Virus record (IMG/VR): IMGVR_UViG_3300042446_001529
Span: 1-64,000 of that record
Reading direction: 5' to 3' (one strand)
DNA: 64,000 nt
From: a virus
A model generated the notes under the pieces. The model saw nothing but the letters and a program-made list of their open reading frames with translations, searched no databases and had not been told where the DNA came from. Positions 157 to 54,260 of this stretch are shown in pieces (position 1 is the first letter of the stretch; the number at the start of each line of letters is the position of its first letter). Both the position numbers and the translations under genes were made by a program.

Positions 157-1020
157 ATGGACCAAATTCCTAATTACAGTCAGCAAAAAAAGAACCCGCT
201 GGCCAGCTTTTATAGACAGCCAAAGATCTATGTCAAACTACCAAGCAAAGGTGAATTCTATCCACCTGGCAGTTTGGATGTCAGTGCCAACGGAGAATAT
301 CCTGTTTATGCAATGACTGCCAAAGATGAACTGCTGTTTAAAACTCCGGATGCGCTGTTAAGCGGACAAAGCACAGTGGAATTGATTAAAAGCTGTATTC
401 CAGCGATAACCAATCCCTGGGCCATGCCAAACATAGATCTAGACTTTGCTTTGATAGCCATACGCATTGCTACCTACGGTGACAAGATGGAAGTGGGTTG
501 TAACTGTCCTCACTGCGAAGCTGAAAACAGCTACGACATCGATCTCACTGCTTGGTTTGGTGTGTTCAACAATTTCCATTATGAAAAAGATATACCGATA
601 GATCAACTAACAGTTCATGTGCGCCCGTATACCTACAAAGAAGTTACAAAAACTGCAATCCAGACCATGGAGCAGCAGAGAATATTTCAGATCATCAATG
701 ATGACACTCTCACAGACGAAGTCAAACTAGAAAGATTTGGTGTGAGTTTTATCAAACTCACAGAACTCACCGTGGATATCATTGCAGACTGTATCACTGC
801 CATAGATGCTCCAGAAGGCACAGTCACTGATCAAGCTATGATCAAAGAGTTTATTGCAAACTGTGCCAAAGATGTATTTGAAAAAATACAGAACCATGTG
901 ATACAGATGAAAGACAATATTCAGTTTGAAGCACAAAACGTTACCTGTGGAGAATGTAATAAGTCATTTAGCTTGCCTATTACAATGGATCAGGCAAATT
1001 TTTTCGCCGTAAAATCTTAA
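157..1020 (+). CDS. 26: Baseplate hub assembly protein gp26-like (T4 baseplate family)
   Basis: This 287-residue protein resembles the T4 gp26-type baseplate hub family that marine T4-like phages carry next to the gp51 gene. Features seen are an N-terminal segment rich in Pro and Lys (about residues 1-40), a CxxC pair around residue 115 (CNCPHC), and a second CxxC near the C-terminus (CGECNKSF). Together the pairs could form a zinc site. Acidic helical sequence fills the middle. The start is supported by CGGAGA a few bases upstream and by a late promoter at 117-124. In T4, gp26 acts in hub assembly in the cytoplasm. The family call is by resemblance to remembered homologues; the zinc site is inferred. 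Confidence 0.8.
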   Translation: MDQIPNYSQQKKNPLASFYRQPKIYVKLPSKGEFYPPGSLDVSANGEYPVYAMTAKDELLFKTPDALLSGQSTVELIKSCIPAITNPWAMPNIDLDFALIAIRIATYGDKMEVGCNCPHCEAENSYDIDLTAWFGVFNNFHYEKDIPIDQLTVHVRPYTYKEVTKTAIQTMEQQRIFQIINDDTLTDEVKLERFGVSFIKLTELTVDIIADCITAIDAPEGTVTDQAMIKEFIANCAKDVFEKIQNHVIQMKDNIQFEAQNVTCGECNKSFSLPITMDQANFFAVKS

Positions 1021-1028
1021 CGCTGTCC

Positions 1029-1232
1029 TTGCCGGAGATTTTACGAGAATCTGATCGCTTAGACAAAGAAGGCAAGGATCTCAAAAAAGAATGCATGAAA
1101 CTGTGTTGGTATATGCGTGGACTAAGTTTTGCTGAAGTCATGCACATGAGCTGGGACGAGCGAGAAATAATTGCAGAGATTGTTAAAGAAAATCTCGAAA
1201 CTACAAGAAAAACAGGACTGCCTTTCTTTTAG
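1029..1232 (+). CDS. 51: gp51-like baseplate hub assembly protein (small)
   Basis: This is a 67-residue product starting at a TTG nine bases after the gp26 stop; no ATG is available in this frame upstream of an in-frame stop. It carries a CWYMRGLSFAEVMHMS-type helix followed by an acidic helix and ends KTGLPFF, a tail shared with small proteins that follow gp26 in marine T4-like phages. By position it is the gp51-type hub assembly factor, expected to act with gp26. Its last bases overlap the stop of the convergent minus-strand gene by three bases. A CTG six bases further upstream is another possible start. Confidence 0.6.
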   Translation: MPEILRESDRLDKEGKDLKKECMKLCWYMRGLSFAEVMHMSWDEREIIAEIVKENLETTRKTGLPFF

Positions 1233-1654
1233 AGTGTGTTTCTATAAGACTTTAGAGCAAATAAGTCTTGACTGTCAAGAGGACTGCCTCGCAGCACTTT
1301 GTCAACAGTAGCACCTACTTCTTCATCGCTGATATCTGCACGATGAATTCTTAATTTCTGTAGGCCTGCTGTGTCCAACGGCTTACCGGACATGGCTTGA
1401 TCAATCAGGGTCTTAAGTTCGTTATTATCGGTGGGTGCTGAATCAGATTTAGTTTTAGATGATTTAGTACCACTAGGTTCAAACCATCTAGACGGAGTCA
1501 ATAGCTTATCCATCTTGTCTGCACCTTTGTCATACTGTATCTTGGCGTTGGTGCCGTCTAGCCATTTACTAGGACTTAATACTTTGTCCATCTTGGACTT
1601 GCCTTTCTCGTAGGCCACTGGTCCGACTTCTACTACAATGTCACGTATTTTCAT
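1229..1654 (-). CDS. Putative internal head or structural protein with capsid-targeting-like leader
   Basis: This 141-residue protein of unknown family begins MKIRDIVVE, which lines up residue by residue with the MRINELLTE start of the gene before it. T4 internal head proteins carry a short N-terminal capsid-targeting peptide ending in Glu that the prohead protease removes, so both products may be packaged in the head; this is inference. Two copies of a KxxKMDKxLxPSxW motif occur near residues 17-31 and 43-57. A Lys/Ser/Thr-rich linker and an acidic, helical C-terminal half (about 78-141) follow. The ATG overlaps the upstream stop in an ATGA arrangement, suggesting coupled translation from the late promoter at 2579-2586. 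Confidence 0.6.
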   Translation of the reverse strand: MKIRDIVVEVGPVAYEKGKSKMDKVLSPSKWLDGTNAKIQYDKGADKMDKLLTPSRWFEPSGTKSSKTKSDSAPTDNNELKTLIDQAMSGKPLDTAGLQKLRIHRADISDEEVGATVDKVLRGSPLDSQDLFALKSYRNTL

Positions 1655-2550
1655 TTTCTAAACACGCTGATAGTGCCCTTTGATAATCCAGTTTCAAATA
1701 TTTTCTGCTTGTGCATTTCCACACGAGCTGCTAATGCTTCTGACAATGCATTTCCGTAATTGATCTTACTGGCGTTTTGTTGAGATAATTGATTTGCCAT
1801 ATTACCCATCACTGCATTGCCAACTTTGGATTGTTTGGCAGCTGCTGCTCTAGTTTCACGTCTACGTACGGCACTTGGTGTCATACTTGGACCAGCGCCT
1901 TTTACTCTACCACCTCTTTTCTTAGTTTGCTGTTGATTGGAATTGTCAGCTGGTAATGTTGTTGGTTCAGGTGCTGCTGTTGTTGCCGCAGCTGGCTCTA
2001 CTGCTGTTGTTGGTTCAGGTGCTGCTGTTGTTGCCGCAGCCGGCTCTACTGCTGTTGTTGGTTCAGGTGCTGCTGTTGTTGCCGGTGGTGCTTTAGGTAC
2101 AGGAGCTGCTACTGATTTCTGCAGCAATTGCAAAATTCGTTGCTTGCCTTTTTTATCTAATTTGTTTACGTTGGCTTTAACCTGTGCGTACACAGTTTGA
2201 TTGGCTTTTTCTTGTGACTGAGCTTGCTGTTTATCTACAACTGCTGTGGTTTTTGCTAGCGCCGAGCCAGCAGGTCCTTGTGCATTGATATCCTGTGCTG
2301 TTGGAGGAGGTGTAGAAGGAGCAGGGTCAGTATAGCCAGGCTGTCCTGCATTAGGATCAGGATCATCACCTACCACAGCTTTGCCGGTCTGATACCCTTT
2401 CTTAAGAGCACGTCCAGCACCTACTACACCGCCAGCTACAGCTCCTACGCCTTTAGCAACACCACCTACAAATTTGCCTATTCCACGGCTTATTGGCCCT
2501 TCGTCTAGCTGTTCAAGTTGTGATTCAGTTAATAGTTCGTTAATTCTCAT
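1651..2550 (-). CDS. Low-complexity putative internal head or structural protein with Pro/Ala/Thr repeats
   Basis: This 299-residue protein matches no family I recognise. It starts MRINELLTE, with a Leu-Thr-Glu that fits the (L/I)xE cleavage rule of T4-type prohead proteases. Next come a Gly/Ala/Val-rich stretch (about 20-52), a Pro-rich linker, a helical Gln/Lys segment, and a tandem Ala/Pro/Glu/Thr repeat of 16 residues per unit encoded by 48-base units. The C-terminal half is strongly basic (KKRGGRVKG, RRRETRAAAAK), which would suit DNA binding inside a capsid. A late-type octamer lies 28 bases before the start. It is probably co-expressed with the following gene. Function is inferred only from composition, leader and promoter. 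Confidence 0.6.
   Translation of the reverse strand: MRINELLTESQLEQLDEGPISRGIGKFVGGVAKGVGAVAGGVVGAGRALKKGYQTGKAVVGDDPDPNAGQPGYTDPAPSTPPPTAQDINAQGPAGSALAKTTAVVDKQQAQSQEKANQTVYAQVKANVNKLDKKGKQRILQLLQKSVAAPVPKAPPATTAAPEPTTAVEPAAATTAAPEPTTAVEPAAATTAAPEPTTLPADNSNQQQTKKRGGRVKGAGPSMTPSAVRRRETRAAAAKQSKVGNAVMGNMANQLSQQNASKINYGNALSEALAARVEMHKQKIFETGLSKGTISVFRK
1961..2082 (-). repeat. 48-bp in-frame tandem repeat (2.5 copies)
   Basis: Two full 48-base units start at 1961 and 2009, and a partial third starts at 2057; they are nearly identical. They encode 16-residue Ala/Pro/Glu/Thr/Val units inside the 299-residue protein. The near identity suggests recent slippage expansion, so copy number may vary between related phages. 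Confidence 0.85.
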
Positions 2551-2578: not shown

Positions 2579-2586
2579 TATTTATT
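2579..2586 (-). promoter_or_regulatory. Late-type promoter box AATAAATA
   Basis: On the minus strand this reads AATAAATA, one base from the T4 late octamer, and ends 28 bases before the ATG of the 299-residue protein. The spacing agrees with the other late boxes in the window. It lies directly after the terminator hairpin at 2587-2608, so it would restart transcription after the gp55-to-nuclease unit ends. Confidence 0.55.
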
Positions 2587-2608
2587 AAAAACGAGCTTTC
2601 GCTCGTTT
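2587..2608 (-). terminator. Rho-independent terminator
   Basis: An eight-base-pair stem (AAACGAGC/GCTCGTTT, 2589-2608) closes a four-base loop (GAAA read on the minus strand). The minus strand continues with a run of five Ts. It is placed to stop minus-strand transcription coming from the gp55/47/46/GIY-YIG block. The other strand has a weaker, interrupted T tract, so termination in both directions is possible. Confidence 0.7.
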
Positions 2609-2610
2609 GC

Positions 2611-3045
2611 GTTTTCGCTTGTCGCTCAACGCCTTTGTCTTCTTTTTAATAATTATTGACATTGTAATTGCGAAGCAATTCAAGTATTATGCAGATTGTT
2701 CAGTCACACTTTGCCCAGGCCGGGCAAAGATAAGAGCATTATGCGAGTTGCACAGTACACTCTAGCGTTACAGCATTACAGAGGCGGTCATCCGGTACCT
2801 CGAGCTGCGTCTTTATACGACGGCGGTGTATACATTTACGCTAACAAATGCACACACGTAGGGTATTTCTCCCTTCTTTTTGCCTTGTTTTTCTTTTCAA
2901 ATAACCAAATCGCAGGTCTTAGTAGCGATCGTCATCCTTTCGGGTAGTGGTTAAGCACCTTTGCGGCAAGGTTTTCCATCCCTGTGTACACGTAGACCAG
3001 GTTTAGAGCGCACGAAATTAAGCCTGCGCTAGCCAAAAAACCGCT
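2611..3045. other. About 435-bp gene-free region with several hairpins, possible structured RNA
   Basis: No convincing protein gene fills this stretch. Stems seen by eye are an AATTGC/GCAATT stem with a three-base loop (2666-2680), a perfect eight-base stem CTTTGCCC/GGGCAAAG with a five-base loop (2709-2729), ACCTT/AAGGT (2957-2972) and AGCGCA/TGCGCT with a 12-base loop (3007-3030). It lies downstream of the GIY-YIG gene and ends at a terminator on the minus strand, so it could be a long 3' untranslated region or a non-coding RNA. A TTGACA on the plus strand (2657-2662) lacks a -10 box at normal spacing. Confidence 0.45.
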
Positions 3046-3480
3046 TTATTTTGCCTGAGATTGTTCTAGTAGACGCTGTCTAAGTATGTTTGAACCGCCG
3101 ACTCTGACGTTTATAATGCCATTATAATAGTCATCAGTTTCTAAAACTCTGCGTTCAAACTGTTCTCTTGCCTCTAAATAACTGAGTTCTGCCTTGGATT
3201 TACAAAGGTAAAGTATTTCTCTTGTGAAGTTTTCCGGACCTAATGATTGGACGTCTGCGTTTAACCTGTCAGATGAACCATAGTATTCTCGCCAATCGCT
3301 TTCTACTACACTTCTTCTTTTGAGTTTTTTGCCTTTGAGTGGGGGTTTAGTGCGTTTGAATTGTGCTAGTTTCTTGCCTATGTACTTCTGTCCGGTAGTT
3401 TTATTCGTGATTATATAAACAAAGCCAATATAGCCTTCTGGTATTTCGTCTATTATTTGATTTTGAAACGTCCATTGCAC
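3046..3480 (-). CDS. GIY-YIG domain nuclease (Seg-like)
   Basis: This 144-residue protein has an N-terminal GIY-YIG core: VYI at residues 21-23 and YIG at 33-35, separated by a Thr-Thr-Gly turn. A YYGSS motif near 75 and a Glu-containing LEAREQFER helix near 125 follow, as expected for the catalytic fold. Stand-alone proteins of this type sit beside gp46/gp47 in many marine T4-like phages and are often labelled Seg-like homing endonucleases, although whether they home is unclear. The start is GTG, 11 bases after the preceding gene stop. Its substrate is unknown. It is the last gene of the minus-strand block that starts with gp55. Confidence 0.75.
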   Translation of the reverse strand: MQWTFQNQIIDEIPEGYIGFVYIITNKTTGQKYIGKKLAQFKRTKPPLKGKKLKRRSVVESDWREYYGSSDRLNADVQSLGPENFTREILYLCKSKAELSYLEAREQFERRVLETDDYYNGIINVRVGGSNILRQRLLEQSQAK

Positions 3481-6529: not shown

Positions 6530-7372
6530 TCAATCTAAACTATCTGTGATAGTGACTGGGCCAGGAGCGTTTTTACCACCATTGGCACTGTTTTGGCGTG
6601 TCCATGAAGGATTCATACCATTCATTTCGAGAATGTCGTCTCGAATGTTTTGATTGCGCTTCTCCAGGTTGATAATTCTAACGAATGAATTAGTGACAGC
6701 AGCAGTATAGTAAGCAAAAGGATTATCAGATTTACTTTCATCGAATTGGAGTCCTATTTGAGTTAGTTGAAGAATGGCTTGACCTTTCATTTCATCATTG
6801 TATGTGTAGCCCCTGACGTTGCCTCTAGTGGCATATCTCTCACAGAGCTTGATAAACATGCGAGCTAGGTCGTTGGTCATTTGCCCGTGATCTTTGGAAA
6901 ACTCTCCACGATCTAGATCTCCTTTCCAATGACTTTTGCCCACACAGATCAAGTTGTCGTTGTCGTCATATTTCCAATGCTGAAAAGGCGGGAAGTTTAC
7001 TTTATCATGACTGTCAGCAGTGTTTTTAAGAGTTTTCTTACGGCCCGGCGCTAATGGTATGTGTGTAAAGGTCATCACACGAAAAACTAGATCTTGTTTC
7101 TTCACTTTGCGATAGTCTACTTCAAATTCTTTTGCAGGCATTTTTTTACCAGCTGCGGTCACAGCTGCTTCGTGCGCAGCTTTGGACATTTTAGATGCCC
7201 TATTTCGTTTGGCTTCTGCAATAGTTCGGATGTTCAGTTTGTCTAAGGTAGTAACGATTAGATCGTATTCTCCGTATGCAGGATCTGTGAAACTACTGTA
7301 GGTATTTTTGCTTAGATGTATTTCTCTTAGTAAATCTTTGTTGGTTAGATACTTAATTTTAGGCACAATCAT
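6530..7372 (-). CDS. 55: gp55 late-transcription sigma factor
   Basis: The 280-residue protein matches the T4-like late sigma factor gp55, longer than the 185 residues of T4 gp55. The recognisable core lies at about residues 165-245: an MTNDLARMFIKLCERYATRG helix, a YTYNDEMKGQAILQL segment and a FAYYTAAVTNSFVRIIN segment, the sigma region 2-like part that binds polymerase and melts the late octamer. The N-terminal half contains an SKAAHEAAVTAAGKK segment and basic stretches that are probably family-specific. A CGGAG lies 11 bases before the ATG. The TATAAATA-like boxes across this window are its expected targets. Confidence 0.92.
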   Translation of the reverse strand: MIVPKIKYLTNKDLLREIHLSKNTYSSFTDPAYGEYDLIVTTLDKLNIRTIAEAKRNRASKMSKAAHEAAVTAAGKKMPAKEFEVDYRKVKKQDLVFRVMTFTHIPLAPGRKKTLKNTADSHDKVNFPPFQHWKYDDNDNLICVGKSHWKGDLDRGEFSKDHGQMTNDLARMFIKLCERYATRGNVRGYTYNDEMKGQAILQLTQIGLQFDESKSDNPFAYYTAAVTNSFVRIINLEKRNQNIRDDILEMNGMNPSWTRQNSANGGKNAPGPVTITDSLD

Positions 7373-16400: not shown

Positions 16401-16930
16401 CTACTAGTGAAGCGTTAAGAACTACATTTGGATCTGCGCTATCATCGATAAAAAGCATCAGTGATGACATAATATATCATCCTGTAAAATATAAAGTGCT
16501 GTTTGGCGCCAAGGCTGATCCTGCGTTTCAAGCCGTGTTCAAGATTGTGAAAAATCAAAATCTGTCTATCAACGATAACGATCTCAAGGTAAGAATTATT
16601 TCAGCTATCAACGATTTCTTTGATATCAACAATTGGGATTTTGGAGACAGATTCTATATGGGCGAACTTACTACGTATATTTTAAATACTGTAGCTCCGG
16701 ACCTAGCAAATATTGTGATCATTCCAAGACAAACAAGTCAGGCATTTGGCAGTCTTTTTGAAATACAAAGCAATCCTGATGAAATTTTAATTAGCGCAGC
16801 CACAGTTGATGATATAGAAATTGTATCTGCGATCACTGCTGCTGAAATAGGTACAAGAACAAACACAAGTGTGCAATCTGAAAATGAACAAGTTACAACA
16901 TACCAGACTAGTAGCGGAGGATACGTTTAA
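13499..16930 (+). CDS. 6: gp6 baseplate wedge protein
   Basis: The 1143-residue protein is gp6, the core wedge ring component. It is recognised from its N-terminal region (QDWTRIYQTFKNADFRSYDF, then SSEYMALIDAVAFLGQSLAFR and SRENFIELAETKESVLRIAR), conserved across T4-like phages, and from order after gp25. It is nearly twice T4 gp6 (660 residues), as in marine relatives. The C-terminal part (about 985-1095) has a YHPVKYKVLFGAKADPAFQA segment and a DFFDINNWDFGDRFYMGEL segment as in gpJ-type baseplate proteins. The start has TTAAGGG upstream. It overlaps the next gene by one base. Confidence 0.92.
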   Translation: MTTTSRQNNLILNQDWTRIYQTFKNADFRSYDFENLRRVIITYLRENYPEDFNDYIESSEYMALIDAVAFLGQSLAFRIDLASRENFIELAETKESVLRIARMLSYNAKRTAAASGLLKFVSVSTTDTIVDSNGKNLAQQLITWNDPTNTNWLEQFLTVLNSAMADNTEFGRSQGSAIIQGIPTEQYRFRTVGTDVPLFSFTKTVASRSVNFEIVSTSFKNSENIYEEPPVPGNQLGFIYKNDGSGPGSANTGFFIQFKQGSLELADFSIDVPTTNEKIAVDAGNINNDDVWLFSLNSQGAQLEEWTKVSSLVGNNIAYNSVTQDIRNIYAINTKENDNIDLVFADGVYGNLPQGAFRVFYRTSNGLSYTIYPNELRGINISVLYRNKNNVEHTLTIGLALQSTVANSAASEDIDTIRANAPAVYYTQNRMITAEDYNLAPLLGSQNIVKIKSVNRTSSGISRNFDIIDATGKYSSINVFGDDGYLYKKEDESVLSFKFTSRIDIINFLRRSIEPVFTDAEIYNFYFTKFDKILFTDTNTVWQSISTATSTGYFKNVVDNSQLLVGAYSTSNLKYVLTNATVKFTAPAGSRFKKGKIVPADVNDADQTDYIWAKIIKVSGDGRYVKGLGPILLNIVVPTGAIATRILPRFINDLPTALETEIVNQVFENQNFGLRYESSESQWKLVTSNNLNLVDDFILGKAGDTTNTNIDSSWIVAFVKQPDSYTVRIRKLGYIFGSVNQNRFYFDSNEKRYNDQLGLVVKDQIKVLGVNTSKDFVTQLIQDFPFEISDTIKFSDGYESTSEIKLSFRDSDDDGVIDNPEAFENIVGVDTDLNFLFFQATNDIYGTRISTLIDNSTDLILIRDKQDNIDFTDVVSYPDQQLIYFYDIGENVIKRVNRTTNTLDIASEYSAVLGRRNLKFQYIHNASVDRRIDPSSSNIIDIYLLIRSYDESYRTYLAGGTSTQPVAPTSEALRTTFGSALSSIKSISDDIIYHPVKYKVLFGAKADPAFQAVFKIVKNQNLSINDNDLKVRIISAINDFFDINNWDFGDRFYMGELTTYILNTVAPDLANIVIIPRQTSQAFGSLFEIQSNPDEILISAATVDDIEIVSAITAAEIGTRTNTSVQSENEQVTTYQTSSGGYV

Positions 16931-19900
16931 TGGCTGATAATACATTCCCTAAAAGCGGATTACCTATACGCAGATCAGTCGAACTACTACCTACAATTTT
17001 TCAAACTCCTACCAACGATAAATTTTTATCTGCAGTAGTTGATCCGTTGATTCAGCCTGGCGTGTTGGATAAAGTAGTAGGTTATGTAGGTCGTAGATAT
17101 GACAAAACCTACAATGGCAATGACGTGTATGTTGATACAGATGCTACTTTGAGAAGCAGCTATCAGCTTGAACCTGGAGTCATATTTAGAGATCAGGATA
17201 AAATAGAAAACTTCTATGACTACATAGATGTTAAAAATCAACTGAAATTTTTTGGAAACTCTATCGAACGCGATGACAAGCTGGCTGATCAAACGCACTA
17301 CACATGGAATCCTCCCATAGATTGGGACAAGTTCATAAACTATCGTGAATACTATTGGGAACCATTGGGCCCCCGCAGCATTAATATTACTGGTCAATCT
17401 GCGGATATAGTCAGCACATATAAAGTTGTGTTAGGCACAACAAAAAATTCCTTTGTGTTTAGTCCTGACAGCTACACAAATAATCCTACGCTAACTTTAT
17501 TCCGCGGTCAAACATATAAATTTAAAATCAATGCCCCTGACGAAGGCTTTAACTTACGCACCAATTTTGATTCCGGCTCACTACTGTTTCGACCCAATCA
17601 ACCGTATCGTGCAGGAAGTTTTGCTGTGTATGATTCAAAATTATGGAGAGCAATTCGTGATGTGTCTGTTTTAGATGCCAGTTCTATTGCCATTGATAGT
17701 CAAGATTGGCAGTTTGTTGAATCAGCTAACCAAGGCGCAGCACTTGCCTATGACAAGGGTGTTACAAACAACGGAATTGAAAACGGAACATTGACTTTTA
17801 CTGTGCCGTATGATGCACCCGATGTCCTTTATTATCAAAGCAACATCACTCCCGATGCATTTGGTAGATTTATCATTGCCGACATAGAAGAAAATACAGC
17901 GATTAATGTAGAACTAGAAATACTCGGAAAAACCACATATACCAGCGGCAATGCAGTGGAGTTTTCAAATGGAATGATTGTGGAATTCAATGGCAAAGTC
18001 ACCCCCTCGAAATATGCCAAGAACACGTGGTTGGTAGAAGGAGTAGGCACGGCTATTACCTTAACACGATTCAACGATCTAGTTGTGCCGAGATTAAGCA
18101 CAGACGTTCCTGAAATATTATTCGACAACGAAGGATTTGACACTCAGCCGTTTGATGATGCCACTGAATATGCTGCATTTAAAGATTATATCACTATTGC
18201 TAGAAACAGCCTAGACAATAATCCGTGGAGTCGATATAATCGCTGGTTCCATCGGTCAGTGTTGGAAAAAGCCTACAAACTACGAGGGCAAGATTTTCCA
18301 GCCGCAGAAACTTCCAGAGCCAAGCGGCCCATAATCGAATTCCTGCCTAATCTACAACTAGTTAATCACGGAACCACGGCAAAAATGTCTGTGGATTACA
18401 TTGATACAAATACTGCCGATGTGTTTTCAACCATTGAAGGATCAACAGGCTACAGCGTAGACGGTGAATTTTTATTCAACGGTGCAAGAATTTTAGTGAT
18501 AGCAGACACTGACAGATTAGCAAACAACAAAATCTACACAGTGCAATTTATCACACATACCAATTCAAAACAGATACACTTGCAGGAAACTGAAGATACA
18601 GAATCAATACTCGGACAAGGAGTAGTTGTTACCAGAGGTAACAAAAACAAAGGATTGATGTATCACTTTGATGGTGTAAATTGGGTAGCTAGCCAGAAAA
18701 AAACCACAGTCAATCAGTCACCATTGTTTGATGTTTTTGACAGCGATGGAATAAGTTTCGGTGATACCACAACGTATTCCGACACAGAGTTTTTAGGTTC
18801 GCATCTCCTTAGCTATAAGCCCGGGAATGGTAGAATTGACAGCGAGTTAGGTTTTAGACTTAGTTATCTCAATATAGATAATATTGGAGACATCGAATTT
18901 AATTGGAATTGGGAAACACAAACATTCAGGTATAGTGTTGATAGAAAGCCTGTGACACAAAAAATTTCCACTGGTTTTTATAAACTGGGATCTGATGTGT
19001 TTGCCAACGGTTGGCAGAAATTAAACAACACATATATCCAACCAATAATTGATAATCTCATAGTAGACACTGATACTGATACCTTGACATTTAACACGGT
19101 GAAATGGGATAGTCTCACAGCTGATCCTGAGATAAATTTTTACCTCAACGGAAACAGATATTTAGGTAATTGGACTCGAAGTCGAAACGTATTTGTATTC
19201 GATAAAACATTTGCTGCCAAAGATGCTGTGGTAATCAAGATCATTGCTGATATAGAACCTGATCAAGGATATTATGAAATGCCAATAGGCATTGAAAAGA
19301 ATCCCCTTAACACAGCAATTCAATCATTCACACTAGGGCAAGCTACTAATCATATTGCCAGTGCGATAGAATGGGACAAAGAGTTTATTGGTGTTTTACC
19401 AGGAGTCAGTAATCTAAGAGATCTTCAAGATTATAGATATCATGCGTCGAGATTTTTAAAACACAGCGGTAATACACCGTTGGCAGTAATGACCTTGTGT
19501 GACAAAACTCATAACATAGTCAAAGCTATACAATACGCTGAAAAAGAATATACAATTTTTAAAAATAATTTTTTACAGAAGTCCCTAGAAATTGATTACA
19601 ATGACACAGTAAATGATTTTGTAGATGACATCATCAACAGTCTTACCGCTGTAAAAACTGCACAGGACGCATTCTCAGATTCGGATATGATCGGAGCAGG
19701 AGCATTTACTGCGCTGACCACAGTGGTAGAGGACACAGGGATACGCACGTTTGCCCTGACACAGCCATTTGATCTTACAACTCCTAGTAGCAGAGCAGTG
19801 TATGTGTATAAAAATGACACACAGCTATTACATGGTGTTGACTATGTGTTTGATGCGACATTTAGCTTTGTGAAATTATTAGTGACACTGGAGTTATTAG

Positions 19901-22900
19901 ATGTCATAGAAATTAGAGAATATCTCAGCACAGCTACTAATCATATCCCTCCTACTCCAACCTCTATGGGTCTGTATAAAAAATACACTCCTACCAAGTT
20001 TCTTGATGACACATATCAAGAGCCTAGATATGTCATACAAGGTCACGACGGTAGTATCACAGCAGCGTTTGATGATTTTAGAGATGATCTATTGTTGGAA
20101 TTAGAATTACGTATCTACAACAATATCAAGCAGGAATATGATTCTGCGGTGTTCGACATAGATCAAATATTAGCCGGATACTACGAAGTAGGTGAATATT
20201 CTAAGGCTCAACTAGACGGCGTGATAGTCCAAGATTTTTTGAAATGGATACAAAATACCAATATCAATTATACCGTGAATGAATATTTTGACAGTGAAAA
20301 CTCATTTACGTATACCTATTCAAACATGTCCGACCCCACCAAGACCAAAAATATACCTGGTTGGTGGAGAGGAGTATATCAACATTTTTATGACACAGAC
20401 AGACCACATCGCTGTCCTTGGGAAATGTTAGGATTCAGTCAACAACCGGTCTGGTGGGAAGCCGAATACGGTGCCGCCCCTTATACCAGCAATAACTTGA
20501 TATTGTGGGAAGATCTTGAAGCCGGTATTATTCGCCAAGGCGTTCGAGCAGGTCGTTATGATAGATACAAACGACCCGGACTATCGTCGCACGTCCCTGT
20601 AGACGGCGACGGCAAGTTGCTGAGTCCGTTGGATTCGAATCTTGCAAAGGATTTTTCGTTGATTAATAATCGCGGACCTTTCGTGCTAGGAGATGTCAGC
20701 CCAGTTGAATACGCCTGGAGATCAAGTTCAGAATGGCCCTATGCGATAATCACAGCCATGTGCGTGATGAAACCATTCGAATATATTCCTGACAATTTTG
20801 ACAGATCAAAATTCTCCAAAAATAAACTAGATCAATATATAAATTCAGACACAGGATTGTTTGTGACTATTTCAGATGTTGCAAGACATGTGTCTGAAGC
20901 TAATAATATAGGCCTAGTGAGATATCTCACTAGTTACATAAAATCACAAGGCTTGCCTGTAGATAATCTACAGAAAAAAATAGAAAAATTAGATGTGGCC
21001 CTAAGTTTTAGAATGAGTGGATTTGTAGATCAGCAACAACAGAAATATCTACTAGACTCTAAAAATCCTTCTGCTACATCTAAAAGTATTTTCATACCTC
21101 CCGAAAACTATGATATCATATTCAATGTCAGCAGTCCAGTAACTACGATTAGTTACAGCGGAGTTCGATTGGAAAAAACTGGAGGCGGCTGGATAGTAGC
21201 AGGCTATGATGACATACATCCCTATTTCAATTATCATCAGCCACAGGCCAGCAGCAAAGATCCTGTAATTTCAGTAGGTGGCCTAAGTGAACCGTTTACA
21301 GACTGGGTCGAAGAAAAAAATTACAACAATGGTATATTAGTAAGATATCAAAGCAATTTTTATCGTGCGTTGAAAACACATCGCAGTACCAATGACTTTG
21401 ATCGAAGCCAATGGCAGAAATTAAGAGACGTTCCTAAAATAGGTGCAGTCGAAGCACTGAGAAGACGAATATTTAATACTATCACAGTTCGGCAGATGAG
21501 CTACGGCACATTGCTAACCAGTATACAACAAGTGGTAGATCTGTTGTTAGGTTATGACAGCTATCTTAAAACACAGGGTGTCGTATTCAATAACTATGAT
21601 CCTCAGAATGCTACCAGTCAAGATTGGTTAAGTGCTGCTAAAGAATTCATGTTCTGGACCAAACACAATTGGGAACCTGGTGCAATTATAGCTTTAAGCC
21701 CTTCGGCGCAAAAATTAGAAATTAATGTGCCTGTAGGGACACCAGATAATCTCTTAGACGGATTCTATGACTATCAGATACTCAAAGGTGATGGCACAGT
21801 ATTGCCTCCTAGATTTATTAACGTTAACAGAAGTTTTCAGAATTTCAAATTAGAAACAACAAATACCACCGACGGTATATATTATGCACGGTTACATTAT
21901 GTTATCAAAGAGCATGTGACTGTATTTGATGATCGCACAGTGTTTAATGATATTATCTATGACAAGACCACAGGATATCGGCAAGGGCGCATAAAAATGC
22001 AGGCCTTCCGTACAGTGGATTGGGACGGAGACTACACTAGTCCGGGATTTTTATTCGACAATGTTGATATACAAGTTTGGCAACCTTTCAAAGATTACAA
22101 ACTAGGGGACATCGTATCTTACAAGTCATACAATTGGACCAGCTTAGTTAACCAACTAGGTTCGGAAAACTTCATCGATGCAACATGGGCTAAATTAGAT
22201 TCCACCCCTGTTAAGCAGCTGGTATCTAATTTTGATTACAAAATAAATCAGTTCAGTGATTACTTTGAAACTACATCGCAAGGTATAAATCAAAGTCAAC
22301 GCGAACTTGCTAGACATGCTATAGGATATCAACAGCGAGATTACCTGCAAAATCTAGCAGAAGATTCTGTGAGTCAATTTCAACTATATCAAGGATTTAT
22401 CAGAGAAAAAGGCACAGCAAACAGCATAACCAAGATATTTGATAAGCTGAGTAGATCTTCAGCAGGCAGTGTTACTCTCAATGAAGAATGGGCATTTAGA
22501 CTAGGACAGATTGGCGGCACAGATCAGTTTACAGAAGTTGAAATACAGTTGGAAAAAACTAAATTTAAACTGAATCCTCAGTTGCACATTTCTAATCTCT
22601 CAGTGAATTCTAAAGTTGTAGATTCATTCTATCGTATCACTGCCAACGATTTCACTATTGCTCCTGTGCCCTACACAGTGGATTTTTTACCTACCACGAC
22701 ACAGACTGAGCCGGTGTTTACAGCTGGTTACGTGAGTGCCGGCCAGTATCAACATGTTATTCGAACCCTGAATGATTTAACTACTTTGGCCATCGACACA
22801 GTCAATGAAGCTGATCATATCTGGGTGACGTTCTATCAAGATTCGTGGCAAGTTCTACGAGTAAATGAATCGGCGCTGCTTTACGTAGTGTCGGTAGCTA

Positions 22901-25900
22901 GACCAGATGATACCACGGTGATACTAACACTCAATCGTCCACATGCTATAGCAGTTGATGACTACATAGGCATTCGTGAAATTGCAAATCTGCAAGGATT
23001 TTTCAAGATCACTGCGGCGACAAACACAACCGTAACAATCACAGTAAACGCAGATATAGATGATCCTGAGATAGACACTAGCACCACAGCTAATTTACAG
23101 TTGTTAACTCCATCAAGATTTTTTGATTATTCTAGTATAGATCAACGGTCTGCAGCACTACTAAAAAATAAATCTTTGGTCTTTGTTGATAACAATAGAA
23201 ATGATCAATGGGAAGTTATTGAAAAGAATAAAACTTATTCAGCAAAAAATATAGACGGTGCTGGTATATCTAATCCGTTAGGGTTAGGCACTAAGGTTAT
23301 ATATGACAATACTAATAAGCACACAATTGTTGCCATACCTCAGTCGGGTTTTGTAAATGTGTATGTAGAAACAGATAACGGTCTTTCGTTAAAACAGATC
23401 ATAGCACCGCCGGTAGGTTTCTTTGAAACAGCATTGGGATCGTTTGGCGAAAAAATGGCAGTTAGTCCGGACGGCAAATATCTTGTAATAGGTGCTCCCA
23501 CAGCCAGCGGAGTAACTAGTAGATATCGAGGCGAGTGGGCCGTGGATGTGTTTTATGCACAGGACGATATTGTCGTATATGGCGGTAGATTATATAGAGC
23601 TCTGAACGCCAACACAGCGGCTACTGATGGAAGTTCAGAAATAGCTATAAATTCAGATGACTGGATGCCACATTCCACTGTCATTCCTGCACAGACAACA
23701 GCAGGAAATTTTGGATACTATCAGCAGGGCATGGTTGCGGTCTATGAATTTGTCAGCGGAAGATATGTTAATGTCACAGCATTCGTGTCACCGAGACCTG
23801 CAGACAATGAAAAATTTGGTTCTGAAATTGTCATCGGTGTAAACGGATCTGAATATTATTTGGCAGTATCTGCTGTGGGATCTTATAACAACACAGGCAG
23901 GGTATATCTCATCAAGCGCACAGGAACAGAGTGGACACATATGGAAAACCCTTTGTATAAAGGCATATACAACCTATCTGATTCCTACAAGCAAGATGAT
24001 ATAGTATGGCAAGCAGCGCAAGATCCCATCTTAGAAACAGCACGTGGCAATTTATGGCAGAGTCTAGACGGATCAACCTCGGATGGCAGCACCATCACTC
24101 TCGATTCACAAAATTGGCTCAAAGTCAGCGACATATCAACACACTGCTCTCTACCAACAAATATCTCTGTGGAAGATGATGGTTCCACACAGGAGTTTAC
24201 AACCACTGGACTGTTAACCAACACTCAGAAAGCAGAACTAGTCAAGCAAGGAGATCAGTTTGGGTTTTCTATGGCCATGAGTGGCGATGGAAATATTTTA
24301 GTTATAGGTGCCCCAAACAGCGATGGACAATATTTTGCAAACTATCGAGGATTATGGAGACCAGACGTTGAATATGTCGAAGGAGAGACTGTAAGATTTC
24401 AAGGATCACCTGGCACAGCATATCAATATTATCAATTAGGTGACACATTTGACAGTACAGACAGCACATATCGCAGTTATAATGAAGATCCATCTGCTAG
24501 TGTTAATTGGCATCAGGTAGGAGACAGCACTACTACACCTAGCGGTAAGATTTTTGTATATAAAAAAACTGCATACGATTCCTATGAATTTGTTCAAATG
24601 ATCAATGCTGGCACACTGTCGTCGTTCACCGACATAGATTCTGGGTTAGTGATTAGTACTGGGGATCAGTTTGGATTTGCTATGGATTTAGATGCCAATG
24701 GAAATACACTAGTAGTTTCTAGTCCTAGATCAGATGTAAATTATCAAGATCAGGGCGCAGTATATGTGTTAGAATTAGATCAATCAACAACAGAATTCCG
24801 AGTGAAACAGCGTTTACAAAGTTATGAAATCTATGCTGATGAATATTTTGGTTTTGCCGTATCGGTGAGTCCAGACAGTTCTAAAATAGCAGTCGGTGCT
24901 AGAAATACAAAAACGCCTTTCTCTATCAATTTTGATCTACTGGAAGGCACAACATTTGATAATGCAAGAACAAGATTTTATATTGATCAAGGATTTACTG
25001 GTGGTGTCTATGTGTTTGACAACAAAGATCAAATATTCTTTCTTACAGAAAAACTGGACAGCGATCTACAGACAGACGAATCATTTGGACACAGCATAGA
25101 CTGTATAGGTTCAAAAATACTAGTAGGATCACCTTATTATAAAAACACATCTACCAAAGCATATCAAGGCATAGCACGTCTGTTCACAGCTAGTGCAGAT
25201 GCAAGTTGGACTGTGCTTACAAGCCAACGACCATTGGTAGATTTAAGAAAAATTAAAAAAATTGAACTTTATGACAATGTAAACAATGTAAAAATACAAG
25301 ACATAGATTTCGTCGATGCAGCTAGAGGAAAAATTCTTAATATAGCTGAGCAAGAAATCAAGTATAAAACACCATACGATCCTGCGGTGTATTCAGTAGG
25401 CACGGATGAAGTGGTAGTGGATACAACTATAAACTGGTTAGAAAAAAATGTAGGAAAATTATGGTGGAATACCAGCACTGCAAAATTTCAATATGCAGAA
25501 CAAAAAGATTCTGCTTATAAAACAGGAAATTGGAATCAACAGGTGTTGGGTTCGAGTATAGATGTGTATGAATGGGTTGAGACGGTGTTGTTACCTAATG
25601 AATGGGCAGCGTTGGCAGACACTAATGCAGGACTGGCTCAAGGAGTTAGCGGGCAACCATTATATCCCAACAATGATGTTTACAGTGTGAAATTTTTCTT
25701 TAGCCCAACTACTGGACTTGTCTCAGAAACATTATATTATTATTGGGTAAGAAGCAAAGCCGTCACACCCAGCAATATGCCAGACAGAACAAAATCAGCT
25801 GCTGAGGTGGCCGGATTAATTGCAAATCCAGCAGGATCGAATCTAGCTTTTGTTGCGTTGATAGAATCCAATAAATTTCTCACATATAATTTTAAAACAA

Positions 25901-28900
25901 TCATGCAGTCTGATACAGCGTTGTTGAATCTACAAATTAACAACAGCTTGGAATCACCGAGACCAATTCACAACGAATACCAATTGCTTACAGAAGGAGT
26001 GGCTGATAATTTACCATCTCCGAAATTAGAAAACAAATGGATTGACAGTCTTGTTGGTTCGGATATCGCAGGAAATAAAATTCCTGATATCGATCTTCCA
26101 GCTAAACAAAAATACGGTATACAATATAGACCTCGACAGACCATGTTTGTCGACAGATTGTTAGCATTACAAATCGTTATAGAATACATCAATGATATAT
26201 TACTAAATGAAACTTTTGCAGAAATCATAGAATATACTAATTTAAATAAAGTTGATACAGCTCCTAGTGATAAATTGAATCTTTATGACATTGCAGTAGA
26301 CACTGAAATAGATCTACAGACAGTGGGAACAACCAATACCAAACGTGCTGTATTGCGTGGTAATTTAATCAACGGTGAATTAGACACAATAGATATAATA
26401 GATCCGGGATATGGATACAAGCCTAAAGAATTATTCGATCAAGAACAACCTGGAATTTATATTGGTCCCCCGGTGATCATCACCGGTGATGGATTGAATG
26501 CCACAGCAGTATGTCACATTGATGGACAAGGCAGAGTAATAGCTGTGGTAGTTACCAATCGTGGTAAAAAATACAGTGTGATCAAGGTCGAGGTGAGATA
26601 TTTTTCTGTGTTAGTAAACAATGATGCAACGCTGAATAATTTCTGGAGCATTTATTCTTGGGATGATTTACGCAAGACATATTTCCGTAGTAGATCACAA
26701 GCGTTTGACACAACAGCATACTGGAATAAAGTAGATTGGGTTAGACCAGGATACAGTGATAATCTACGTGTTGTTAAAGAATATTCTAACATTTATGAGG
26801 TCATAGATAGCCTTGTAATGATCGGTGACATTATCAAAGTCAAAGAATATGCTGCAGGCGGATGGGCTAAATTCCAAAAAACTCAAGAAATAGGTCAAAC
26901 ATTTTTAGACAAGTATCTACTAGTTGGTAGACAAAACGGTACAATACAAATAAATTCTTCATTGTACGACACTGGTGTAACTGGAGTCGGGTTCGATAAT
27001 ACACAACCATTTGACACTACAACCTATGACATAGAAAATTCGCAAGAACTTAGAAATATTTTTGCAGCAGTAAAAGAAAATATTTTTGTAGGAGATTACG
27101 CAGTAGAATGGAACAAATTGTTTTTTGCTTCGATACGACATGTGTTCAGCGAACAGCAGTATGTGGATTGGGTGTTCAAAACCAGTTTCCTAAATGCCAC
27201 CCATAATATTGGCACACTAGCAAGCCCGCCAAATTACAAAAATGATAATCTATCAAGTTATCAAGAATACATCAACGAAGTTAAACCATTTAGAACCACA
27301 GTTAGAGAGTATATCAGCCGTTATGACCAACCAGAAACATATGCATCGTCGGCGGTTGATTTTGATCTTCCACCGTCATATTCAATCTTTGACGGCCGTG
27401 CTAATCCTGTTAATGCATCATCAACAGAAATATCACAGTATCCGTGGAAATGGTGGGCAGATAATAAAGGCTACGCAGTCACAGCTATAGAGGTATATCA
27501 GCAGGGCACAGAATACTTAACTCCACCTAGGGTGTTGATAGAAGGAGATGGAATTGGTGCCACCGCTAGAGCATTTATTTCAAATGGTAGAGTGTCGGGC
27601 ATACAGATGTTAACTCAGGGTTCAGGATATCTTAAAGCACCAACAGTGACATTGGTAGGAGGAAATCCATCTACTGCTGTACAGGCCAAAGCCACTGCAA
27701 TCATAGGAAATTCTCAAGTGCGTATGTTTGATGTCGCTTTGAAATTTGATAGACTCTCGGCCAACGGCATCTATGAAAATTTTTCGCAGACACAGACATT
27801 CATTGCCGGCGGTAGTAGTGCTGTATTCTTTTTAAATTATGCACCAACTAATGATAAAACTCGAATCAAGGTAACTAGAAAAATATCTGCCACACAAAAA
27901 ACACAGGTTGTGTTGGCTAGTGACTATCAGATATCTCTGTATTATCAACCCACAGGTGGTTATAATTTACTTCGTGGAAAACTGACATTTAATACTGCAC
28001 CAACTATAAATGATGAAATCACAGTGATCTATGACAAGAACATTTTGTTATTAGATGCTGTGAATAGAATAGAAAAGTCCTATAACCCAAAAACAGGCAT
28101 GATAGGCAAGGAACTAAACCAACTCATGACTGGTATTGACTTTGGTGGCGTAAGAATACAAGGCACTACATTCGATGTCACTGGTGGTTGGGATGCGCTA
28201 CCTTGGTTTACTGATAGTTGGGATTCAGTAGAGCTCAGTTCAGATTATTACCATGTAGCGGACGGCAGCACCGTCTCGGTGACGTTACCATATATACCAG
28301 CAGCTGGGCAGCAAATCAACATATATATCAAACGTAAAAACACAAACATCACAGTGCGTGTAGATGATGAAAATTATTCATCGGCACAAGATTCTAGCAC
28401 AGGTGTTAATCCTGCAGCAGAAATGCCAACGTTTGTAGGTGATGGGGTAAATGCTGTGGTATTAATAGGGCCGTATCTCAGCACCCAAGATGGTGATATC
28501 CTTATTTTCCGTCCGATAGACAGCGACGGATCTGTGGTAATTACAGATGATAACATATTAGATACCAAACTCAGCGGCGGATCGTTGTCAGCTATTAGTT
28601 CTGCTTATGCCACTGCCACCGGTGCAACTGCAGAAGAAATTGCTATTACAGGTGGAAAGTTCATTGACAAAGATAACATTCCGGCGCCTGAAGAAAATAT
28701 ACCAGGACAGGTAATAGACAGTGTTTCGATAAAAGTATACAACAACAAAACATCCGGAGCAGCTGCGTTACAATCAAAGATTACTATTTCTAATGGTCAA
28801 GACACTGTGTTTGCTATAGGTCAGACAGTTTTAGAAAATTCCTCAGTGTTTGTTTATGTTGATAACACTGCAAAAGCGTTGAATCAACATTACACTATAG

Positions 28901-50661: not shown

Positions 50662-51875
50662 TAAACGAACAAAATAAAACTACCTGGTGTGTAAACGCTG
50701 ACCACGCAATGAGTGGAAATAATACTGGTACAACAAAAATTTGTTGCATGTATCGAGATCAAGATCTAAAACATTCATTAGGTGCTGAACCTATTGCAAT
50801 TAATTTTAATCAGAAAGCATTTCAGGAAGTGAGAGATACATTGGGTTCCGGAAAGAGACACGATAAGTGCAGTTGGTGTTTCGAAGAAGAAGACGCTGGT
50901 CGTAAAAGTAAGCGTCAGCGCGATAACGACAAATACGTTGACTGGTTACGTAAAGGAAATGCACCCTTTAAAGGTCTTGCCAAAGTTGAATTAAACTTGG
51001 GCAATACCTGCAATTTAAAATGCAGAACCTGCGGAAGTCATTCTAGTAGTACTTGGATGGAAGAGGACTACGATGTTTATGAAAACCAGAGATATTCTAC
51101 ATATAAATTATTTGCTCAAAGTATGAAAAAGTATCATCAGCACTACGATGACGAAAGTCCGTTTTGGGATGATCTAGAAAATAACTTAGCAACGATTAAA
51201 CAGTTCGACTTCTATGGCGGTGAGCCTTTCATGAGTAAAAAAATGTGGCGTATCTTAGAAGTTGCTGTTGAAAAAGGATATGCTAAAGATATCGAAGTAC
51301 ACTATGCTACCAACGGCACACAGTGGCCTGCTGAAAAAGTTGAAATATTCAAACATTTTAGACACGTACATTTATCATTCAGTGTCGACGGTATAGGAGA
51401 ACAATTCGAATACATGCGTTATCCTGCTAAATGGAGCGAAGTAAAAGAAAATATGAAAAAGGCAGTAGAACTTAGTAATAGAACAGGTAACATCTATCTA
51501 GGTTGGTGTATTACTTTGAGTACAATAAACATTACAGGATTGCCAGCAATATTAAAAGAACACAATACAAATTTTAAAGAATTTGGACCCTATCTTAATT
51601 TAGTACACGGACCAATACAATATAACTTAACTCAACTGCCAACGGACGTAAAATCCTATGTTGTTGATATACTCAAGTCAATTCCTAAAGAAGATGTTGA
51701 TGGGTATATGTATGAGTATCATATTCCAGGAATTATTAATTTTATTATTAACGGCACTGCTAAATCAGAAAATTGGGAAAAGTTTAATCGACATGTAAAA
51801 GCACACGATGAATATCGAGGACAAAATTTTGCAACAGTATATCCAGAATATGCAAAGACAATAAACTATGAATAA
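50658..51875 (+). CDS. Radical SAM enzyme 3 with N-terminal twitch-like cysteines
   Basis: The 405-residue protein has an N-terminal cysteine set C11, C29, C30, C71 and C74 (TKICCMYRD, CSWCFEEED), the radical SAM motif CNLKCRTC at 118-125 and FYGGEPFM. A SFSVDGIGEQFEYMRYP stretch near residue 240 is shared in type with the other enzymes (SxDxxGxQxEYxR). It ends FATVYPEYAK, matching the FPE tail of enzymes 1 and 2. The start overlaps the SGNH stop in ATGA. Confidence 0.87.
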   Translation: MINEQNKTTWCVNADHAMSGNNTGTTKICCMYRDQDLKHSLGAEPIAINFNQKAFQEVRDTLGSGKRHDKCSWCFEEEDAGRKSKRQRDNDKYVDWLRKGNAPFKGLAKVELNLGNTCNLKCRTCGSHSSSTWMEEDYDVYENQRYSTYKLFAQSMKKYHQHYDDESPFWDDLENNLATIKQFDFYGGEPFMSKKMWRILEVAVEKGYAKDIEVHYATNGTQWPAEKVEIFKHFRHVHLSFSVDGIGEQFEYMRYPAKWSEVKENMKKAVELSNRTGNIYLGWCITLSTINITGLPAILKEHNTNFKEFGPYLNLVHGPIQYNLTQLPTDVKSYVVDILKSIPKEDVDGYMYEYHIPGIINFIINGTAKSENWEKFNRHVKAHDEYRGQNFATVYPEYAKTINYE

Positions 51876-53130
51876 TAACTTTTTTAATTTTGATCAACTA
51901 GATCAATTACACATCGAGCTGTCTAATGCGTGTAATGCTGCGTGTCCAATGTGTACTCGATTTCATGTTAACAGTCCACTTACTCGTCCAGATTTAGAAA
52001 TAGATCAAATTACTATTGAAAAATTTAAACAATATTTTCCACCAGAAGTTGTTAACAAGTGTGAAGTAATTTTGTTTTGCGGTGTTCACGGTGACCCCGG
52101 CATGGCAAAAGATCTATACGAGATTTGCGAATACATAGATCAAGTAAGTCCAACAACTGTCATTCGTATGAATACGAACGGTGGAATGCGTAAACCAGAA
52201 TTCTGGGCTAAGATGGGAACTTTGTTTTCAAAGAAACTAAGAGATCACTGGTCATGGCAAATTACATTTAGTATCGACGGACTAGCAGACACAAACCACT
52301 TGTACAGAAGAAACGTAGAGTGGGATAAGCTCATAGCAAATGCAAAAGCATTCATAGATGCAGGTGGTCGTGCAGAATGGGACTACTTGATTTTTAAACA
52401 TAACGAACATCAAATCGACGAAGCTAAACAACTTTCTAAAGACATGGGATTTCATGCATTTGTTCCTAAGAAAGCATTGGGCGTTGATAACGGTACAAGT
52501 TTAGTACGCATGAGTGCAATGACTCGCGAGGGTGAATTTGATTATTGGATCGATGCTCCTGTAGACCCAAAGAATAGAAATTTGGAAAATCCTCAAGGAC
52601 AAGTACAAGATCAATTTTGGAAATTTAGTATAGATGATTACAAACGTCTTAAAGAAAATAAACTAACACACAACAATCATCCTGAACGTGTTGCCAACGT
52701 ATATGACATGCTACGTTCAGAAGATAATTCTATATTAGATAGTGCTAGCATCAAGTGTAAAGCCGAAACTAGAAATGGTGGTAGAGAAATATTTGTTGAT
52801 CAAAAGGGTCGTGTTATCCCTTGTTGTTACATGGGCACACACTTAAACGGCGTACATTCAGATAGCCAAAGCCTGCAACTGCATTACGAGATTGAAAAGT
52901 ACGGCTGGGATCACTTCGACCTTAACAAACATAGCCTTCAAGAAATCATGGAAGGTCATCACCTGGATCGGGTGTTTACGGACTCATGGACCAAGTCTAG
53001 CTGTGCCGAAGGCAAAATGGCATATTGTGCTAACATATGCGGAACCTTTAGTCGAGTAGATAGAATTTATACACACGAAAAGATGGACGACAAATCTAGA
53101 AATTGGCGGGAAATAAAGGTATCTAAATGA
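51868..53130 (+). CDS. Radical SAM/SPASM-type enzyme 4
   Basis: The 420-residue protein begins with the core almost at once: CNAACPMC at 22-29. In place of GGEP it has FCGVHGDPGM. The C-terminus holds a SPASM-like cysteine set: C297, C319-C320, C379, C387 and C391, around FVDQKGRVIPCCYMG. This differs from the other cluster members, whose extra cysteines precede the core. SPASM enzymes often work on peptides, so this is the best candidate for peptide or protein modification. Coupled to both neighbours. Confidence 0.87.
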   Translation: MNNNFFNFDQLDQLHIELSNACNAACPMCTRFHVNSPLTRPDLEIDQITIEKFKQYFPPEVVNKCEVILFCGVHGDPGMAKDLYEICEYIDQVSPTTVIRMNTNGGMRKPEFWAKMGTLFSKKLRDHWSWQITFSIDGLADTNHLYRRNVEWDKLIANAKAFIDAGGRAEWDYLIFKHNEHQIDEAKQLSKDMGFHAFVPKKALGVDNGTSLVRMSAMTREGEFDYWIDAPVDPKNRNLENPQGQVQDQFWKFSIDDYKRLKENKLTHNNHPERVANVYDMLRSEDNSILDSASIKCKAETRNGGREIFVDQKGRVIPCCYMGTHLNGVHSDSQSLQLHYEIEKYGWDHFDLNKHSLQEIMEGHHLDRVFTDSWTKSSCAEGKMAYCANICGTFSRVDRIYTHEKMDDKSRNWREIKVSK

Positions 53131-54260
53131 ACAAAGAAACATTTTGTTCTTTGCCGTTCACTGAGATTTTCTTAGGACCGGATGGCCACGTCAAGACTTG
53201 TTGTTCGGCATCTAATTCTATAGGATCGTTACATACAAACACAATTGACGAACTAATCAACGGAAAGGTTGCAACCGATATTCGACAGCATATTCTTGAT
53301 GGTAAATGGCATGAGTCTTGCAGACAATGTAAACAACAAGAATCTCAAAATGCTAGATCAGAAAGAGACAGTGATTTGGAAAGATTTCAAACTGACTACG
53401 GACCTGTTGATAATTCTTTTTTTAAATTGAGAAGATTAGATCTACGCTGGAGTAACACTTGTAATTTATCTTGTACTTATTGTTATGAATATTTTAGTTC
53501 TAAGTGGGCAACGTTGAAGGGTTTAAAAATTAATACAATCAAAGATGAAAACGAAAATAGTTTATTTCTCATGATTGAAAAAAACATAGACTCTATAGAA
53601 AATATCTTAATGTTAGGCGGCGAACCGTTATTACAAAAACAAAATCTACGATTAGTTAATACTATAACAGATGATAGAAGTTTTTACATCTTATCCAATC
53701 TAGCAATACCATTAGAATCTAACTCAATTGCACAAACATTAATAAATGAACGAACTACAAAATGGGGAGTTAGTTTTGAAACAGTTGGCAACAGATACGA
53801 GTATGTAAGACGAGGAGCATCTTGGGATCTATTTGCAAAAAATATAAATTACATACAAGAAAAAACATCCAATAATATAGATGCACATAGTTTATATTCG
53901 ATATATTCTGCATTTAATCTTGTTGAATTTTATGAGTTTATACAGGAAAATAAAATTAAAAATGTATTTTGGAATTTATTAGAGTCGTCGGGAGAAAATT
54001 CTACAGCTAGTGTTCTTAAATTATCTCCTGAATTAAAGCAACGTGCAATCGACGAAATCACTCAATGTGAAAAATTATTTCCAGATGCTCCCGGATTAGA
54101 GTGGTTATTGACTTTTAAGAAAAATCTCACATTAAAAACAAAATCAACAAATAAAAGTTTTGTAGAAGAAATATATTCATTAGAAACTACCTATTTAAAA
54201 AATGAAACTTTAAAATTTGAAAAATTGTGGCCTACTGAATGGGAGTTATTAAACAAATGA
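53127..54260 (+). CDS. Radical SAM enzyme 5 with N-terminal twitch-like cysteines
   Basis: The 377-residue protein has FCSLPF with C7, then C25 and C26 (VKTCCSASN), and C65 and C68 (CRQCKQQE). These are followed by the radical SAM motif CNLSCTYC at 112-119 and LMLGGEPLL. The N-terminal block, in which Cys-x-x-Pro is followed by a GPDGHV turn and CC, is a complete twitch/SPASM-like set placed before the core. Its ATG is in the ATGA overlap with gene 4, and its own stop overlaps the next start. Confidence 0.87.
   Translation: MNKETFCSLPFTEIFLGPDGHVKTCCSASNSIGSLHTNTIDELINGKVATDIRQHILDGKWHESCRQCKQQESQNARSERDSDLERFQTDYGPVDNSFFKLRRLDLRWSNTCNLSCTYCYEYFSSKWATLKGLKINTIKDENENSLFLMIEKNIDSIENILMLGGEPLLQKQNLRLVNTITDDRSFYILSNLAIPLESNSIAQTLINERTTKWGVSFETVGNRYEYVRRGASWDLFAKNINYIQEKTSNNIDAHSLYSIYSAFNLVEFYEFIQENKIKNVFWNLLESSGENSTASVLKLSPELKQRAIDEITQCEKLFPDAPGLEWLLTFKKNLTLKTKSTNKSFVEEIYSLETTYLKNETLKFEKLWPTEWELLNK

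Follow-up and report, generated by a model that had tools for sequence, protein, structure and literature searches.

In an uncultured giant phage of the T4-like type, two adjacent genes, ORF A and ORF B, start with a short leader that resembles the capsid-targeting peptides (CTS) of phage T4. The sequence of A makes it very probable that this protein is internal, targeted to the head and processed by a protease, and B is probably likewise a head-targeted internal protein, although its leader ends in VVE and breaks the (L/I)xE rule. CTS internal proteins are a known kind of protein, and A and B are new members of it. The first-pass annotation had proposed that these genes may encode new internal proteins of this type, and the proposal is supported by the enrichment of the modular leaders, the conserved sites in A and the protease cassette of relatives. 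The window, i.e., the whole 64,000-nucleotide stretch analyzed, comes from a virus record of this T4-like phage that is 98,644 bases long, of which it covers the first 64 kb (Table 1).

Table 1. Features near the left end of the window (↓, proposed cut).
Feature	Position	Strand	Details
T4_baseplate/hub protein	157-1020	+	
Small ORF	1029-1232	+	
ORF B	1229-1654	-	141 aa, N-terminus MKIRDIVVE
Leader of B	1628-1654	-	residues 1-9 MKIRDIVVE, ends VVE
ORF A	1651-2550	-	299 aa, N-terminus MRINELLTE
Proposed full propeptide of A	2500-2550	-	residues 1-17 MRINELLTESQLEQLDE, site 2 LDE↓GP
Leader of A	2524-2550	-	residues 1-9 MRINELLTE, site 1 LTE↓S
T4-late-promoter-like TAAATA	2579-2584	-	within TTTTAATAAATAAAG, 34 nt before the ATG of A
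Terminator-like hairpin ACGAGC-GAAA-GCTCGT-TTTT	2586-2606	-	directly before the late promoter; read from sequence
SegE-like GIY-YIG gene	3046-3480		
gp55-like late sigma factor	6530-7372		

Leaders and protease sites of A and B

The two ORFs, which overlap in ATGA on the minus strand at the left end of the window, had been placed correctly by the first-pass annotation, including their N-termini. Its statement that the leaders match by residue class at every position was wrong, as the classes agree at 7/9 positions (N4/R4 and T8/V8 differ) and the identity is 3/9 (M, I and E). In T4, the CTS is a propeptide of 10-19 residues in which residues 4 and 7 serve targeting and residues 8 and 10 serve processing, and the cut falls after L/I-x-E (PMC9026906). 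The leader of A is in keeping with this length (about 10-19 residues), ends in Glu and has hydrophobic residues at the targeting positions; as had been noted, its LTE fits (L/I)xE (LTE9↓S), and the rule is followed again at LDE17↓G. The VVE at the end of the leader of B fails the strict rule, with Val at P3. The same leader stands on otherwise unrelated proteins of the phage, and L/I-x-E closes it in A and not in B.

To compare the leaders with chance, N-termini were searched with the regular expression ^M[KR].{1,4}[DENQ][FILVMY]{2,3}.E, which matched 4/108 called genes of the 98,644-base contig, where shuffled N-termini gave a mean of 0.09. In a relative, G001 (281,658 bases), it matched 8/328 genes compared to 0.28 in shuffles. 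Since A and B shaped the expression, independent support comes from the other two contig matches (MRASEFIVE and MRAYEFVTE) and from the G001 matches, which include MRAKEFINE and MKTFKEYLVE along with some that are unconvincing, such as MKEEMMSE. These results show that the leader similarity exceeds chance. As a control, a looser expression, allowing up to two extra residues before K/R, returned IPII, IPIII, gp22, gp24 and 61.1 from T4 (~149 kb) and nothing else, and the leader expression had no matches in lambda and T7. A search for the leader on further proteins, proposed by the first-pass annotation, found it in the contig, in G001 and across viral contigs.

T4 gene 61.1 (AF158101 18966-19130, L313) combines a CTS-like leader, MKTFKEFIKE, with a copy of the mature N-arm of gp23 (GDSGGNPENISIGTTSGAVVNKGP in 61.1, GDHGYNATNIAAGQTSGAVTQIGP in gp23; 0/2000 shuffles were as good). 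In viral contigs, the small leader proteins L150, L151 and, more weakly, L175 resemble the PA5oct-type capsid N-arm (NASAGATxxGxIAT). Could 61.1-type leader proteins deliver a mimic of the capsid N-arm to the prohead?

The protease sites of A are kept among its homologues. Site 1, an [LI]xE closing the first 9-10 residues, is present in 26/26 distinct N-termini, and site 2, [LI]xE↓GP further in, is present in all 26 distinct homologues as well, at a varying spacing from site 1. Several relatives also carry, upstream of A, a paralogue of ~490 aa (L365 1512-2999, L383 1888-3366, L394 1636-3099) with a hydrophobic Gly-rich middle; in L383 and L394, for which the whole protein was read, the C-terminal part is A-like and follows an internal site of the LxE↓GP type, with ITE↓SQLNE↓GP (L383) or LQE↓GP (L394) lying directly before the A-like domain, which has YAQVKxDLxKLDxKGKxR in common with A. 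Because the (L/I)xE sites are kept at varying spacing and recur inside the paralogue, processing fits better than a purely structural leader. The paralogue is missing in the window and in G001. At the place that it occupies in relatives, A and the GIY-YIG gene of the window are separated by ~400 bp (2621-3045) in which no clear gene is seen, perhaps the remnant of a deletion.

Behind its CTS-like leader, A has a Gly-zipper-like segment (~residues 20-62), Ala/Pro/Thr-rich linkers, a helix-like segment (VYAQVKANVNKLDKKGKQRILQLLQKS) and a conserved basic C-terminus ending in HKQKIFETGLSKGTISVFRK. The C-terminal half had been described as strongly basic, which holds mainly for the last third (residues 200-299: 18 K/R vs 5 D/E, pI 11.4) and more weakly over residues 150-299 (19 K/R vs 10 D/E). 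In B, the leader is followed by a mostly helical protein with two internal duplications, for which the structure model is of low-to-moderate confidence (mean pLDDT 65; ~80 for residues 75-140) and had no match at E ≤ 0.001 among viral structure models (Foldseek). Pfam has no family for A or B, PHROG gave nothing significant for either (the sole weak match of A had E = 0.039), and tblastn of A, B, the C-terminal part of B and the paralogue of A against 50,697 phage records returned zero matches, so that no characterized homologue of A or B was found in these three collections.

Head genes, prohead protease and late promoter

In G001, A, B and the hub pair are followed by a 988-aa protein, the portal (gp20, PF07230, E = 4e-109), a small ORF, an acidic gp67-like ORF, a gp21-type protease (Peptidase_S77, PF03420, E = 5e-24) containing LGEVDHP and VSSRGSG, a gp22-like scaffold and, last, gp23. 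Place and composition are the basis for calling two of these products gp67-like and gp22-like. Here gp23 bears its own site (...NTRKYLAE↓SATAG). The hub gene and small ORF of the window (157-1232), which sit between A/B and the head cassette, are syntenic with G001 97633-98708, and the contig begins inside the gene that separates the hub pair from the portal in G001. A check for a prohead protease, also proposed by the first-pass annotation, was positive for the relatives, where the gp21 family was present in six related records (one of them partial) in the head cassette near A/B; the 98,644-base contig itself contains no S77 protease, but it ends just before the expected place of this gene.

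Of the contigs in which gp23 is complete and interior, 10/10 had both the leader and the S77 protease. In T4-like phages gp21 and gp23 adjoin, and for this reason the co-occurrence mainly shows that the contigs are T4-like. An earlier comparison, in which S77 was found in 10/25 leader contigs of >70 kb and 0/14 of 40-70 kb vs 1/14 random-14-mer contigs, is confounded by fragment length and was dropped in favor of the gp23 test.

The indication that A and B are expressed late is a motif, TAAATA, together with the gp55-like sigma factor gene in the window. The motif lies in the stretch TAATAAATA preceding A, and no TAAATA promoter-like motif was found before B; thus, A and B look like one late operon. 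In this phage group TAAATA is found upstream of ~18% of genes, compared to ~2% expected. Between the GIY-YIG gene and the gp55-like gene lie 46/47-like genes, as recognized by sequence and SbcD-like matches. Further into the window, the tail/baseplate region contains a single ORF of 4605 aa (16930-30747), perhaps the counterpart of the 3857-aa virion protein EST35_0128 of PA5oct, and 51868-54260 and its neighbors include genes that look like radical-SAM genes by CxxxCxxC, e.g., 51868-53130 with HIELSNACNAACPMCTRFH (from the ORF list).

Leader proteins in PA5oct virions and in environmental phages

For PA5oct (Arenbergviridae), a relative of this phage, the virion proteins detected by ESI-MS/MS are marked in GenBank, and the remaining genes were taken from our own ORF calling. 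Leaders of the form M[KR]...[LI]xE, ending at about residues 9-12, start 5/93 virion proteins compared to 3/408 others (p = 0.007, with a pattern chosen post hoc), and the control patterns [LI]x[KDNS] were not enriched among the virion proteins. With a stricter expression the numbers were 2/93 vs 2/408 (p = 0.16), and further definitions gave p = 0.08 (looser expression), 0.04 and 0.14 (any start); the enrichment is thus supportive, not decisive. The MS list also contains enzymes that are possible contaminants, e.g., ribonucleotide reductase. Two of the five leader proteins, EST35_0150 (MKINDIITE) and EST35_0238 (MKIKDILVE), nearly equal B in the leader and were detected in particles by MS, but no sequence similarity to B was detected past the leader. 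The G001 protein starting with MKTFKEYLVE, a weak match to the PHROG 'internal head protein', has a PA5oct homologue that was MS-detected in the virion and whose leader is degenerate (MKSFRDYYDA). Positional equivalents of A and B in PA5oct were considered and dropped, as EST35_0146 has no leader.

An Fe/Mn superoxide dismutase with an N-terminal extension is encoded in both phages (G001 217301-217858, L049; PA5oct 172979-173527). The PA5oct extension, MNDSIKKYISIAE↓AASS, ends in IAE↓A and its protein was MS-detected in virions; that of G001, MAYNFIQKFIVE↓GKKD, ends in IVE↓G. To our knowledge, a superoxide dismutase packaged in a phage would be unusual.

The related pattern MRAxEFIxE was searched at the DNA level and gave at least 120 stretches in viral contigs compared to 10 for a permuted motif. 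Among the matches listed, 102/124 viral ones began within 20 codons of an upstream stop (1/10 permuted) and 46/124 had TAAATA within 60 nt of the start (0/10 permuted). In contrast, a complete scan of bacterial and archaeal genomes (257 Gb of bacterial DNA) gave 79 matches lying a median of 212 codons inside an open frame, with 7/79 within 20 codons of a stop, mostly in tiny ORFs. Once the leader was removed, 108 distinct proteins among the matches listed formed 22 clusters by sequence, of which the largest had 61 members; here, unrelated means no blastp link at E ≤ 1e-4 and therefore concerns kinship at the sequence level only. One nine-residue pattern, phage-specific and at gene starts only, thus marks 22 unrelated clusters. 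The recognizable cargo includes a GH19 protein and an SLT transglycosylase (E = 5e-16 and 2e-4, respectively) as well as an HExxH protein.

The largest cargo family (L115, L123, L134 and ~58 others) consists of proteins of ~105-140 aa with invariant R44, S99, E101 and S111 (L123 numbering); no Pfam match was found for its representative and no PHROG match for L123, and L107 and L160 each hold two copies in one locus. For A3 (49 sequences), which is the largest leader family, the structure model has a mean pLDDT of 68. At G000 76787-82611 (L037/L038) lies a cluster of genes with leader-like starts, which are MRASEFIVE (on a Gly/Tyr-rich protein with a basic end), MRAYEFVTE, MRAKDII, MLLKEMF, MRDLLSK and, on a cytidylyltransferase-like protein (PF01467, E = 3e-8), MLLRQLFE↓AE.

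Proposed route, alternatives and comparison with T4

We consider it likely that A and B carry T4-type leaders, are expressed from a late operon, dock, are cut after Glu by an S77 protease and are retained in the head with the DNA. The two proteins would be produced late in infection, their genes forming a single operon next to those of the head, and the leader would dock each precursor onto the core of the forming prohead. The gp21-type (S77) protease would then act on A behind LTE9 and/or LDE17, so that the remaining basic chain begins with GPI..., and would cut B after VVE9, if B is cut at all. Mature A and B would stay inside the head with the DNA, and a mature protein may enter the next host, as we infer from T4 (PMC9026906, PMC12373910). 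The sequence evidence supports targeting and, for A, processing. Mutants of the T4 CTS that are targeted but not processed are known (PMC9026906).

One reading that we hold to be possible but somewhat improbable makes A and B parts of the prohead core or scaffold, as T4 gp67, gp68 and gp22 are, which would be targeted, cut and serve head assembly only, with little or no ejected effector. It would account for an A that, unlike the hypervariable T4 internal proteins, is conserved and keeps its syntenic place beside the portal-protease-scaffold-capsid cassette, and whose low-complexity sequence includes Gly-rich, Ala/Pro and basic parts; the T4 scaffold gp22 likewise bears such a leader. However, an acidic gp67-like protein and a gp22-like scaffold are already present in the G001 cassette, and the sites noted in A are close to its N-terminus and do not divide it into many fragments. 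Far less probable is that the N-termini are ordinary helices or tail-assembly signals and that A and B belong to the neighboring baseplate module, whose hub genes they adjoin: the T4 control matches of known role are head or internal proteins, the leader is present on enzyme-like proteins (GH19, SLT, HExxH), and the positions that matter for the protease rule are invariably Glu and L/I. A tail protein had also been considered for A from its hub neighbors and was dropped.

For B, the question is whether it is processed at all, since VVE fails L/I-x-E and the gene at its position in L357 starts with MRIRDLNDGF, without the leader; the likeness of the leaders could then reflect chance or a weaker shared function. 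This we regard as unlikely, because five distinct homologues of B retain MKIR[DE][IV][VI]VE↓VGP (only the one in L029 has IVE), L365 carries MKIPEIVIE↓A at the same place, and the near-identical leaders of EST35_0150 and EST35_0238 start MS-detected virion proteins. B may be the partner of A. The conservation, synteny, basic C-terminus, glycine-zipper-like stretch and low complexity of A suggest that it is probably a constant internal/core or DNA-associated protein and not a fast-evolving anti-restriction effector.

Somewhat more tentatively, we lean towards the view that environmental T4-like and giant phages use the leader generally as an address for head loading, and that it is carried by dozens of unrelated cargo families including enzymes (lytic transglycosylase, GH19 and HExxH proteins and perhaps superoxide dismutase), with A and B as constant cargo and A with a two-step propeptide. 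If so, a leader scan would list most of the injected proteins of these phages. The literature searched, which covered few subscription papers, held no description of such leader cargo in environmental phages. Phage-carried proteins act before phage gene expression, and their fast evolution makes them hard to detect by homology; in the T-even phages, it was the leader that led to the internal proteins. This logic works here in uncultured phages as well. Which proteins are injected becomes a question of sequence that proteomics can test in an isolate like PA5oct, and the leader offers a way to new proteins that are probably delivered by phages into bacteria.

Compared to IPI, IPII and IPIII of T4 (CTS MKTYQEFIAE), A and B have a similar short leader with a hydrophobic pair, any residue and Glu, and this leader stands on unrelated mature chains; A keeps the protease rule and is basic when mature, and G001 even carries MKTFKEYLVE. 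In contrast, the leaders of A and B have nine residues and read E-L-L-x-E or D-I-V-x-E where T4 has E-F-I-A-E; a further fixed site (LxE↓GP) is present in A, and B lacks the L/I. A is also conserved and of low complexity, whereas the T4 internal proteins are diverse, being diverse GmrSD inhibitors (PMC12373910). The closest single leader is that of T4 gp24 (MAKINELLRE↓S), in which KINELLRES is identical to RINELLTES of A at 7/9 positions, but A has no Pfam match or sequence sign of a gp24/HK97-type capsid protein.
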